Assembly (NCBI GenBank): GCA_904374805.1
Contig: CAJFEW010000007.1
Span: 1 to 42,741, forward strand
Source of the DNA: an uncultured Neglectibacter sp.
GTDB taxonomy: Bacteria; Bacillota; Clostridia; Oscillospirales; Acutalibacteraceae
Direction: 5' to 3'
DNA: 42,741 nucleotides
Shown: piece after piece, positions 34,202 through 37,936 of the stretch
How the letters are laid out: each line of letters opens with the position of its first letter
Numbering within the stretch: position 1 is the stretch's first letter
The notes under the pieces: model-generated
What the model saw: the letters and a program-made list of their open reading frames with translations, nothing else
The model's database searches: none
Told to the model about the DNA's origin: nothing
Made by a program: the position numbers and the translations under genes

Positions 34202-34402
34202 AGCTCGTCTTGGTTTTTGGTGCGCCGCTTTGAACCCCTGCCGGCTGCAAGTTCTTTCAGGCGCCCCGCCGGAGGGACCCCATTTCCGATAGACAGGCAA
34301 ACTGCGGCTGTTTGACGCATATTTGTATAGGGGAACCGTTGTTTCTCCCACTTTCACTGGAGAACCGCGGTTCTCAATTTTTTGGAAAAAGGGGCTGACT
34401 TT
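34202..34402. other. Non-coding stretch before the recombinase locus, with paired palindromes
   Basis: No supported gene. Two related inverted repeats stand near the downstream end: GGGGAACCG...TTTCTCCC (34330-34349) and the perfect 16-bp palindrome GAGAACCGCGGTTCTC (34360-34375). They share GAACCG/TTCTC and lie 29 bp apart, just before the small ORF that precedes the recombinase. They may be recombinase-binding or operator sites. Confidence 0.55.
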
Positions 34403-34516
34403 ATGGGAAAACGATCGCTGCAAATCACCTGCTGCTTTGGAGAGGAGGACGCGGGCGCGCTTTTATTTCGCTCGTTTCTGCTGTTTCTTCGCCGGGAACT
34501 GGAACAGGTCCGCTAG
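34403..34516 (+). CDS. Small protein upstream of the serine recombinase
   Basis: 37 residues, MGKRSLQITCCFGEEDAGAL and then FRSFLLFLRRELEQVR. The ATG at 34403 has AAGGGG about 9 nt upstream. Short ORFs with this layout (a beta strand, Gly/Asp, then LLxxSFxxFLxREL) are found in front of TndX-type recombinases in mobile elements of Clostridia; that is recollection, not a search result. Probably cotranscribed with the recombinase 54 bp downstream. Function unknown. Confidence 0.6.
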   Translation: MGKRSLQITCCFGEEDAGALLFRSFLLFLRRELEQVR

Positions 34517-34570
34517 GCCCATGCTCCGCCGTCCCATGCAGCAAAAGTCCCTGATCCCAGGAGGAAGAGG

Positions 34571-36148
34571 ATGCACTGGGAGATAGAAAACCCTGCAGAC
34601 TACCAGGCAGGCCTGTATATTCGCCTGTCCAAGGAGGATGAAAACGAAGGCCCTTCCGAAAGCGTCAGCAACCAAAAATCCCTGTTGGAGGAATTCGTCC
34701 GCCAGCACCGTCTGCAGGTGTTTGACACCTATATCGACGATGGATGGAGCGGCACCAATTTTGACCGCCCGGCGTTTCAGCGGCTGATCGCCGACATCGA
34801 GGCCAAGAAGGTCAACTTGGTCCTCACCAAGGATTTGAGCCGTCTGGGCCGGGACTACATTCTTACCGGCCACTACATGGAGCGGTTCTTTCCCGAGCAC
34901 CGGGTGCGGTACATCTCCCTGCTGGACGGCATCGACACCGGGGTGGACTCCACTGCCAACGACATCACTCCCTTCCGCGCCATCATGAACGACATGTATG
35001 CCAAGGATATCTCCAAAAAGATATCCAGCGTCAAGCACGACAAGCAGCGCAAGGGGCTGTTCATCGGCGGCAAGCCGGTCTACGGCTACAAGATGCACCC
35101 CACCGAGAAAAACAAGATCGTCATCGACGAGCCGGCCGCCTCAGTGGTGCGCCGGATCTTCGGTATGGCTCTCTCCGGCAGGAGCTGCCGGCAGATCGCC
35201 TCCAAGCTCAACGAAGAGCATATCCCCACCCCCGCCGCGTATGCGGGACTCCCGGTGAGCAGGCCCGGCCCCTACACAGGCCTGTGGTCCAGTGAGCGGA
35301 TCTCGGAGATGCTGCAAAACGAAACGTACATCGGCAACATGGTGCAGGGGCGCAGCCGAAAGGTCAGCTATAAGACAAAGAAGTGCATCCGGCAACCGCC
35401 TCAGGATTGGATTGTGGTGGAAGGCACCCACGAGCCCCTCATTGACCAGGAGACCTTCCACAAAGTGGGTCAGCTGGTGGACAGCCGCAGGCACACCCGC
35501 AGCCGCACCTACGATTTTCTGCTCAAGGGGTTGATCTTCTGCCACGAGTGCGGCTACCCATTGGGAGTGCTCAACCGCAAAAACGCCAAGGGCGAAAACG
35601 TGCTGTACTTTGTCTGCCGCACCTACCAGCGGTTCACCAAGGCCGGGGTTTGCACCTGCCATTCCATCAAGGAGCAGGTTGTCACCCAAGCGGTAGTGGA
35701 GCAGGTGCGGGAGATTTGCCAAAAGTATTTGCAGCCGGAAAAACTGCTGCCCATCGCCCAGCAGGAGATCGCCAAGGCCCAGGCGGAGGTGGATCATAAG
35801 AAGGAGAGCGCCGCCCTGAAGGCCAAGATCGACAATCTGTCTGCCCAGTTGGACCAGGTGTATCTGGATAAGCTGTCCGGCCTGCTGGATGAGGGGGATT
35901 TCCAGCGGGTCTACCGGAAGGTCAAGGCCGACCGGACCGCGCTGGAGCAGCGCCTCTTCCAGATGGACCGGCCGGACTTCTCCCCCGAAAAGCAGAACAA
36001 TCTGGCCAGAGAACTGGTGGAACGCTTTCTGGCTGCCGCCCCTACTAACCGGGAGGTATTAGTTTCCCTGATCGAGCGGGTGGAGTTGACCGAAGAAAAA
36101 GAGGTGATCCTCCGCTTCCGGGTTCGCAAACCAGAGCAAAAGGGATGA
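34571..36148 (+). CDS. Large serine recombinase (TndX/SpoIVCA-like)
   Basis: 525 residues. The resolvase domain has the nucleophile Ser20 in YIRLSKEDENEG and the catalytic Arg set in LVLTKDLSRLGRDYI. Next are a Recombinase (PF07508) domain with GGKPVYGYKMHP, then near 320 a zinc ribbon with CHECGYPLG and paired Cys in VCRTYQRFTKAGVCTC. A coiled-coil region follows (HKKESAALKAKIDNLSAQLD) and a C-terminal DUF4368-like end. The ATG at 34571 follows AGGAGGAAGAGG. It appears full length and intact. Such enzymes integrate or excise elements and, in the skin system, restore sigK. It converges on a sigma-K fragment, the same layout as spoIVCA-spoIVCB. Confidence 0.93.
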   Translation: MHWEIENPADYQAGLYIRLSKEDENEGPSESVSNQKSLLEEFVRQHRLQVFDTYIDDGWSGTNFDRPAFQRLIADIEAKKVNLVLTKDLSRLGRDYILTGHYMERFFPEHRVRYISLLDGIDTGVDSTANDITPFRAIMNDMYAKDISKKISSVKHDKQRKGLFIGGKPVYGYKMHPTEKNKIVIDEPAASVVRRIFGMALSGRSCRQIASKLNEEHIPTPAAYAGLPVSRPGPYTGLWSSERISEMLQNETYIGNMVQGRSRKVSYKTKKCIRQPPQDWIVVEGTHEPLIDQETFHKVGQLVDSRRHTRSRTYDFLLKGLIFCHECGYPLGVLNRKNAKGENVLYFVCRTYQRFTKAGVCTCHSIKEQVVTQAVVEQVREICQKYLQPEKLLPIAQQEIAKAQAEVDHKKESAALKAKIDNLSAQLDQVYLDKLSGLLDEGDFQRVYRKVKADRTALEQRLFQMDRPDFSPEKQNNLARELVERFLAAAPTNREVLVSLIERVELTEEKEVILRFRVRKPEQKG

Positions 36149-36162
36149 CTTTGTATATGCAA

Positions 36163-36197
36163 GCAAAGAATGCGCCGGAAAACGGCGCATTCTTTGC
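36163..36197. terminator. Hairpin between the recombinase and sigK fragment
   Basis: Perfect 15-bp stem GCAAAGAATGCGCCG (36163-36177), GAAAA loop, complement at 36183-36197. It lies between convergent genes and can end transcripts from both sides, though neither side has a strong T-tract. Confidence 0.6.
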
Positions 36198-36229
36198 AGG
36201 CAAAATCGCTTACAATAGAGCCGCTGCCA

Positions 36230-36690
36230 TACATAGCTGCGGGATATGCCCAGCCGTTTGGCCACCACCCGCTGGGGCTGGGGCTGAAACCCACAGAGCC
36301 CGTAGCGCATGCAGACAATCTCCCTCTCCCGGGTGGTCAAGGCCCTTTGGAGAAACCCGTAGAGCTTTTCGCTTTTCAGCTTCACATCCAGGTTGTCTAT
36401 AATGGTGTCGTCCACGGCCATGGTGTCCAAAATGGTCAAGGTGTTTCCATCCTTATCGGTTTCAATGGGATCGCTCAGGGACACATCCTGGGCGCTTTTG
36501 CGGCCGCTGCGGAAAAACATGAGAATTTCGTTTTCAATGCACCGGGACGCGTAGCTGGACAGGCGGATCCCCTTAGAGGGATCGAAGGTATCCACGGCTT
36601 TGATTAGGCCAATGGTACCAATGGAGACCAGATCCTCTTGATCGTTTTGGCTGGCGTAGTATTTTTTCAAAAGATACGCTACAGGGAAAG
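36230..36690 (-). pseudogene. sigK: Sigma-K gene fragment, cut off at both ends
   Basis: A frame of about 150 codons encodes sigma-K from region 2 to the start of the region 4 recognition helix: LLKKYYASQNDQEDLVSIGT, RLSSYASRCIENEILMFFRS, DVSLSDPIETDKDGNTLTIL, TTREREIVCMRYGL and VVAKRLGISRSYV. The match begins near VAYLLKKYY (about 36690) and ends at SYV (36232-36230). Upstream, the conserved ARNxLIEHNLRLV part is missing, or survives only as a frameshifted remnant. Downstream, the expected SRIEKRAL helix is replaced by unrelated codons running into the hairpin. There are no stops within the match, so decay is recent or the piece is part of a gene rebuilt by excision. The frame has no good start codon (TTG at 36670). 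Confidence 0.8.
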
Positions 36691-36798
36691 TCTTTTGAAA
36701 AAAGGACAGGCTGCGTTCCGATGTCTTATGGCCCGCATCTTGGAAGAAAAAGCAGTGGGCCGTTCCAAGGGATCGTCCCTCTGCCGGCTTGGAACCCC

Positions 36799-36862: not shown

Positions 36863-37936
36863 ATGGAACTGGAACGTATCGGCCGGGTACTGCAGGCCAT
36901 GAAGGAGCGGGGACTTTCTCAGATGATTGTCTGCGACCCCCAGAGCATCGACTACTTGACCGGGGTGCACGTGGCGCCCTTTGAACGGCTATTCGCCCTG
37001 TACCTGCGGGCCGACGGCAACCACGTGTTCTTTTTGAACAAACTCTTCACCGTGCCGGAGACTCCCCTGGAGAAGGTGTGGTTCAGTGACACCGACGACT
37101 CCATTGGGATGCTAGCTCAGCGGATACAAGCCGGGGAACCTTTGGGCATTGACAAAGAGTGGACGGCCCGGTTCCTGCTGCCCCTGATGGAGCGGCTGCC
37201 CGGCACCTCCTTCCAGCTGGCCAGCGACTGCGTAGACAGTGTGCGGGCCCGGAAGGACGCCGCCGAGCAAGAGCTGATGCGCATGAACTCCCGGCTCAAC
37301 GACGAGGCCATGACCCGTGCCGTGGCCTACATTCGGGAGGGCATGACCGAGCGGCAGGTGGCCAACTTTCTGATGGCTCAGTACAAGGAATTGGGGTGCG
37401 AGGAACCCTCCTTCTCCCCCATTGTCTCCTTTGGCGCCAACGCCGCCGATCCCCATCACATGCCGGACGACACCGTCCTGCGAGAGGGGGACTGCATCGT
37501 ACTGGACATTGGCGGCCGGAAGGATGGGTACTGCTCGGACATGACTCGCACCTATTTCTGCAAACGTGTTTCCGACAAGCACGCAGCCATCCACGACCTG
37601 GTGCGCCGGGCCAACGAGGCGGCTGAAGCCTTGGTCCGTCCCGGGGTGCCCCTGTGCCAGCTGGACAAGGCCGCCCGGGACATGATTGCCCAGGCGGGCT
37701 ACGGGGAGTACTTCACCCACCGGCTGGGGCACTTCATCGGCCGCACCGAGCATGAACAGGGGGACGTGAGCAGCGTCAACACCACCCTGGCCCAGGAGGG
37801 CATGGTCTTTTCCATTGAGCCCGGCGTCTATCTGCCTGGGGAAATGGGCGTGCGGGTGGAAGACTTGGTGCTGGTCACTGCCGAGGGCTGCGAAGTGCTC
37901 AACCGGGTGGACAAGCACTGCCAGATCATTGGCTGA
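36863..37936 (+). CDS. M24-family peptidase (Xaa-Pro aminopeptidase-like)
   Basis: 357 residues: an N-terminal creatinase domain (ERIGRVLQAMKERGLSQMIV, IDYLTGVHVAPFERL) and a pita-bread catalytic domain. Metal ligands are visible: Asp in IVLDIGGRKDGY, Asp in CSDMTRTYF, His in THRLGHFIGRTEHE, Glu in FSIEPGVYLPGEMG and Glu in VRVEDLVLV. The HGIG motif of most members reads HFIG here. It is predicted to remove an N-terminal residue preceding proline, in the cytoplasm. The ATG at 36863 has GGAGG 9 nt upstream; the frame extends 75 codons upstream without meaning. Divergent from the sigK fragment. Confidence 0.93.
   Translation: MELERIGRVLQAMKERGLSQMIVCDPQSIDYLTGVHVAPFERLFALYLRADGNHVFFLNKLFTVPETPLEKVWFSDTDDSIGMLAQRIQAGEPLGIDKEWTARFLLPLMERLPGTSFQLASDCVDSVRARKDAAEQELMRMNSRLNDEAMTRAVAYIREGMTERQVANFLMAQYKELGCEEPSFSPIVSFGANAADPHHMPDDTVLREGDCIVLDIGGRKDGYCSDMTRTYFCKRVSDKHAAIHDLVRRANEAAEALVRPGVPLCQLDKAARDMIAQAGYGEYFTHRLGHFIGRTEHEQGDVSSVNTTLAQEGMVFSIEPGVYLPGEMGVRVEDLVLVTAEGCEVLNRVDKHCQIIG

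Follow-up and report, generated by a model that had tools for sequence, protein, structure and literature searches.

A sigK gene in three pieces in an uncultured Neglectibacter, probably interrupted twice and rebuilt by two recombinases

In Bacillus subtilis and Clostridioides difficile, sigK is interrupted by an element whose recombinase rebuilds the gene during sporulation, and in B. subtilis spoIVCB and spoIVCA are convergent. The window analysed here, a stretch of 42,741 nucleotides that is the entire contig C7 of the draft genome of an uncultured Neglectibacter sp. (hereafter G000), holds a piece of sigK that lacks both ends and faces a large serine recombinase gene. Is this an unusually split gene or a dead copy, the two options left by an earlier note made from the letters alone, and where is the rest of the gene? 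The features with which the answer begins are these:

1-33192, neighbouring chromosomal block with tuf, fusA, rpoBC, rpoD, dnaG and further genes up to DUF2461; not part of a mobile element
34404-34517, plus strand, small ORF of about 37-40 aa directly upstream of rec2
34571-36148, plus strand, large serine recombinase gene rec2, 525 aa, with Resolvase, Recombinase and Zn_ribbon_recom domains
36230-36667, minus strand, middle piece of sigK (hereafter M), from KKYY to ISRSYV, with Sigma70_r2 and Sigma70_r4 domains (Pfam)
36863-37936, plus strand, M24 peptidase gene, beyond M as seen from rec2

M sits in a minus-strand open frame (36061-36690) and aligns with positions 61-212 of the 227 of the SigK profile TIGR02846 (NCBIfam; E 6.3e-54), its score of 182.9 bits falling under the cut-off because M is a fragment. 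The earlier note had described a stop-free sigma-K segment ending at SYV about 80 bp from an intact, convergent large serine recombinase, and this description holds in each part: M departs from sigK after ISRSYV, at 36230, 81 bp away from where the rec2 stop codon ends (36148), the two genes converge, and the rec2 frame is open with all three domains. The 5' end, given by the note as VAYLLKKYY, is indeed cut there, but VAYLL is not sigK; the sigK part of M begins at KKYY, 36667, and the residues before it belong to another attachment site, on its element side. The note had not seen the full layout, in which the gene is broken twice into three pieces and there are two recombinases.

The G000 assembly has 2274541 bases in 100 contigs, and is 95.94% complete with a contamination estimate of 0.04. 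A complete sigK elsewhere in the genome, which the earlier note had named as speaking against its proposal, was not found by searching the whole 100-contig draft with TIGR02846. This search gave eight matches, among them the window fragment, an N-terminal fragment on contig C40, weaker sigma factors and one full-length match on C28; the latter was considered as an intact sigK and rejected, as it scores as SigE (NF006158, 355.3 against a cut-off of 339). Both of the missing ends that the note had proposed to look for are present. The N-terminal piece (hereafter N) occupies 8870-9073 of C40, with 68 codons that end in VAHIVK and match TIGR02846 positions 3-72; another large serine recombinase gene, rec1, faces it in convergent orientation. 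For the 3' end, a pattern with R as the fifth motif residue had no match in G000; relatives have IEKKAL, and the degenerate pattern IEKKALEKL occurs in G000 at one place, on C76, with 0 mismatches, where the reversed-pattern control gave one match within two mismatches. This C-terminal piece (hereafter C) is the last 23 codons of the gene, SRIEKKALEKLREEFEKKEGAPL followed by a stop.

Can the three pieces make a gene? The breaks share short words, AAAAA between N and M and ATGTAT between M and C, and when the pieces are joined at these words they yield a single in-frame SigK of 236 aa without a stop, an interrupted frame rejoined through a short shared core as in skin-type elements. The joined protein passes NF004471 (291.8 bits, cut-off 252) and scores 279.9 against TIGR02846, under its cut-off of 298.65, a value that the uninterrupted SigK of G020, a relative, falls short of too (287.4). 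Ahead of N lies a promoter-like GCACTTT-14-CATACACA, and a like-spaced site ranks in the best two for 11 of the 11 species' sequences aligned, in a consensus scan run without shuffles. A split SigK protein working without DNA joining was considered and rejected, C being 23 codons without a start of its own.

The two breaks fall at codon 68 (site A, VK/KYY) and codon 213 (site C, SYV/SRIEK). Attachment-like sequences accompany both of them in the window:

36229-36234, minus strand, core word ATGTAT of site C, common to the C piece on C76
36209-36228, minus strand, element-side arm of site C; the CTTACAATAG motif, read on the plus strand, starts 20 nt from the core
36663-36702, minus strand, attachment half of site A, an A-run core and element-side arm

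The site-C arms on C7 and C76 each carry CTTAC(A/C)ATA(G/A), or YTTAYNWTAR, beginning 20 nt from the core, and the same motif is found in the site-C arms of most relatives displayed; those of G202 fit poorly. It has four matches in 131840 positions (three contigs), two of which are these sites, a rarity that is not an independent test because the motif was derived from them. At site A, the C7 and G003 arms agree at 26 of 34 positions, a score that none of 5000 random windows reached; with the G013 and G023 arms the agreement is 17 of 34 each, reached by 28 and 31 of 5000. As inverted repeats about a core, both site-C arms have the motif and the site-A arms align less well. The note had placed the break further 3' than that of B. 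subtilis, and site C does lie 3' of the nt 195 and nt 423 sites described for the B. cereus group, the latter of which shares the B. subtilis AATGA core (PMC10745906).

Each break has a large serine recombinase of its own, as would be expected at the end of a skin-type element: rec1 at the junction of N and site A, and rec2 at that of M and site C. The rec1 frame is open with Resolvase, Recombinase and zinc-ribbon domains. Large serine recombinases have an N-terminal Tyr-x-Arg-x-Ser motif, which reads YIRLS in rec2 and YARVS in rec1. The small ORF upstream of rec1, of about 64 aa, overlaps the recombinase start. Of the 11 rec2-type genes displayed, 9, with that of the window among them, have a small ORF (37-60 aa) ahead of them that looks similar by eye, and for rec1 too the small upstream ORFs resemble one another between species by eye. 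Four of these ORFs, including the window's, were compared with Pfam and have no match up to E 1. The small ORFs upstream of rec1 and rec2 are candidate directionality factors.

The comparison with related genomes that the note had proposed shows sigK intact in G020, and split in other relatives at the same sites beside the same kinds of recombinase. At least 10 of 29 genomes of the genus (own included) have a split sigK among the matches listed, and among these matches the splits fall at site A in G003 and G023, at sites A and C in G013 and G000, and at a further site B (profile about 109-117) in G009, G010, G018, G021, G022 and G024, for the last of which the N half alone was seen. Retrieval with M gave 80 named loci, 70 with a full-length frame and 10 without, several of the ten stopping at a contig edge. 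Homologues of rec2 at E <= 1e-120 are present in 11 of 200 genomes of the family, own included, and in 8 of the 10 other genomes a C-terminal piece of sigK lies directly 3' of the homologue on the same strand. Five of these eight are broken at site C (G202, G076, G079, G205 and G082). Contiguous site-C elements measure 5692 bp in G202 (a single-contig genome), 7005 bp in G076 and 11771 bp in G079, and all join in frame; in G205 the site-C halves are on two contigs, and G082 has sigK in three pieces, split at sites B and C. In G178 (L177/L223) and G171 (L180/L198) a C-like piece adjoins the rec2 homologue, yet each genome also has a full-length-looking sigK, and in G166, where C is beside a rec2 homologue, no N or M piece was seen.

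A counterpart is G013, which has the same two interruptions as G000 and three pieces joinable in frame: N with rec1, and M 11 kb on, lie on the 45-kb contig C10, and rec2 followed by C on C54. After M on that 45-kb contig (L078 18814-20000, L079), ORFs resembling ParA, ParB, MobC, a relaxase, VirD4 and VirB were noted by eye. In the 5-kb site-A element of G003 (L081 10348-12281), a Y-family DNA polymerase and a YolD-like gene were likewise noted by eye beside rec1. A single segment separates the gene pieces at site C in G202, G076 and G079 and at site A in G003, G023 and G013; in G000 the pieces are on three contigs.

How are these three contigs related to the native locus? The block at 1-33192 of C7 is collinear with G013 contig C22 from about 3.6 kb and with G020 contig C1 from about 4.3 kb, as well as with G003 contig C10 as far as that contig covers. 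Collinearity with G013 and G020 stops at DUF2461 (33192), exactly where rec2 and M lie. Five of 40 genomes (own included) have the M24 peptidase gene; the copies of G013 (C58) and G023 (C109), as assembled, are on contigs other than that of sigK. The native upstream genes of sigK (U) are on G000 contig C10, without N. In G003, G012, G013 and G020, DUF1275 is downstream of sigK. On C40 of G000 it precedes N, and C, looked for beside it there as in relatives, was not present; C retains its native downstream genes on C76. These comparisons used neighbour genes with identity of at least 60% or more than 150 bits, upstream genes of at least 60%, and best non-overlapping ORFs for collinearity. A tRNA suspected by eye at the left of C76 was discarded, ARAGORN having found none. 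In G202, which belongs to another genus, sigK and a SigA-type gene are about 432 kb apart on the single contig. The recombinase gene rec2 adjoins M in G000 but C in nine relatives (G013 and eight others), and the flanking words would fit an element in reverse orientation at the same site C. As the surroundings of the pieces differ from those in relatives, M was most likely moved a long way from its native place, a conclusion that rests on a draft assembly in which contigs may be chimeric.

Both ends of sigK are in the genome, the join is in frame, no complete sigK was found in the assembly and relatives share the sites and recombinase kinds, and for these reasons the note's alternative of an unusually split gene is supported and that of a dead or decayed copy is less likely. 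We favour, at a probability of about 0.75, a doubly interrupted skin-type sigK whose three pieces are rebuilt by two recombinases in the mother cell, such that sigK can probably work only after the chromosome has been cut and rejoined during spore formation. In the mother cell, during sporulation, rec1 would join N to M at site A and rec2 would join M to C at site C, each helped by a small directionality factor for which the small upstream ORFs are the candidates. The product would be an intact sigK under its own promoter, and the spore would retain the split form. The recombination itself, its timing, the assignment of each recombinase to a site and the roles of the small ORFs are what we infer from the in-frame joins, the conserved arms, the open recombinase frames and the splits in relatives. 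Against this reading count SigG, which was not found in the draft, the TIGR02846 score under its cut-off, the place of rec2 beside M where nine relatives have it beside C, and the full-length-looking sigK of G178 and G171. If the pieces are far apart, large parts of the mother-cell chromosome would be lost or inverted on joining, which would work by excision or inversion alike because the mother cell is not inherited. A wider proposal, which we make tentatively and rate at somewhat less than even odds, is that the pieces do lie at distant places with essential blocks such as rpoBC between them, that the mother cell puts the gene together through large-scale deletions or inversions in its disposable chromosome, and that the germ line can thus bear breakpoints within the elements.

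That proposal competes with an assembly artefact, in which the interruptions are real and chimeric contigs have scattered one ordinary locus with two elements, as possibly in G013. The draft does have 100 contigs, recombinase genes are repeats (eight Recombinase-domain matches on six contigs of G000) and rec2 and M stand exactly where collinearity with G013 and G020 ends; nevertheless four false joins would be needed at once (U/C10, DUF1275-N/C40, rpoBC-rec2-M-peptidase/C7 and C-MBL/C76), the contigs have similar G+C (0.53-0.59 in the measured parts) and the contamination estimate is low, and we consider an artefact possible but less likely than not. If on the other hand the elements are mobile phage or integrative conjugative insertions that use sigK as attB, reconstitution would be incidental excision and not developmental. 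The conjugation-like ORFs after M in G013, whose site-C element may be an integrative conjugative element inside sigK, and a phage-like tail ORF noted by eye in the G202 element point in this direction. In G000, however, no mobile-element genes were recognised near rec2 among the ten flanking proteins scanned, and a spore-former with a late sporulation gene left broken would be selected against, making an explanation by incidental excision improbable.

The same low standing is given to a dying sigK in a lineage that is losing sporulation, its pieces being relics of insertions and rearrangements. SigG was not found in the G000 draft and is present at about 400 bits in G013, G003 and G020, so either it lies in the unassembled part of a genome that is 95.94% complete or sporulation has been lost in this lineage. 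The genome is also small (2.27 Mb), and the native order is broken on every side of the pieces, which are on three contigs. Against such decay, none of the three pieces has a stop or frameshift, and dN/dS between G000 and G013 is well below 1 (0.068 for M over 145 codons; 0.129 for N over the 49 codons compared), with 0 replacements among the 9 codons of C compared and finite values for M against other relatives of 0.092 to 0.145; dS is near saturation, and most of this signal of selection may therefore predate the present arrangement. The promoter-like site, the attachment arms and both recombinase frames have been kept, SpoIVA (above cut-off in G000, and intact in 8 of 8 genomes examined), SigE and SigF-like genes are present, and G013 independently keeps three pieces that can be joined in frame.

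Interrupted sigK genes are already known, and what would be new here is the 3' site, the double interruption and the apparent dispersal. No report of a two-element or three-piece sigK was found in a search of mainly open-access literature. If the favoured reading is true, two independent recombination systems can interrupt one sigK at two sites simultaneously, and the extreme 3' end of the gene, which lies within the recognition helix of region 4.2, is hit repeatedly in this family. It would perhaps also mean that a developmental gene survives scattering, as it may do because the cell in need of it is a disposable one; scattering, if true, would be in principle a bacterial counterpart of soma-only genome rearrangement. 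For annotators and for surveys of sporulation genes there is a caution, since a sigK seemingly absent from a draft may exist in pieces.

How does this locus compare with characterized systems? In the skin element of B. subtilis the recombinase gene likewise faces the 5' piece of sigK. There the large serine recombinase SpoIVCA, with its directionality factor Skr, restores the split sigK via a short core, and the Skr ORF lies upstream of and overlaps the SpoIVCA gene as the small ORF does at rec1 (PMC6957869). That system, however, has one element at one site, whereas G000 has two sites, both elsewhere in the gene. The skin-Cd element of C. difficile (recombinase CD1231, directionality factor CD1234) is in the opposite orientation to that of B. 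subtilis, with the recombinase gene directly upstream of the 3' piece, as rec2 is in G013 and eight relatives (PMC5025042). It differs from G000 in being a single element, and in the account given there its site is described just as unlike that of B. subtilis (PMC5025042). In the B. cereus group there are independent insertion sites in sigK at nt 195 and nt 423, and excision has been confirmed for the elements of two strains; the nt 195 site, at codon 65, has site A nearby, but the insertions are single, and among those described in section 3.5 of that paper none is near site C (PMC10745906). Heterocyst interruption elements of cyanobacteria act in nitrogen-fixation and other genes and not in sporulation, and the relevant parts of their description contain no scatter among housekeeping genes (PMC4874684). 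They are nonetheless alike in that one gene can hold several elements, as do 10 of 87 interrupted genes, among them the nifD of Rivularia with four (PMC4874684).
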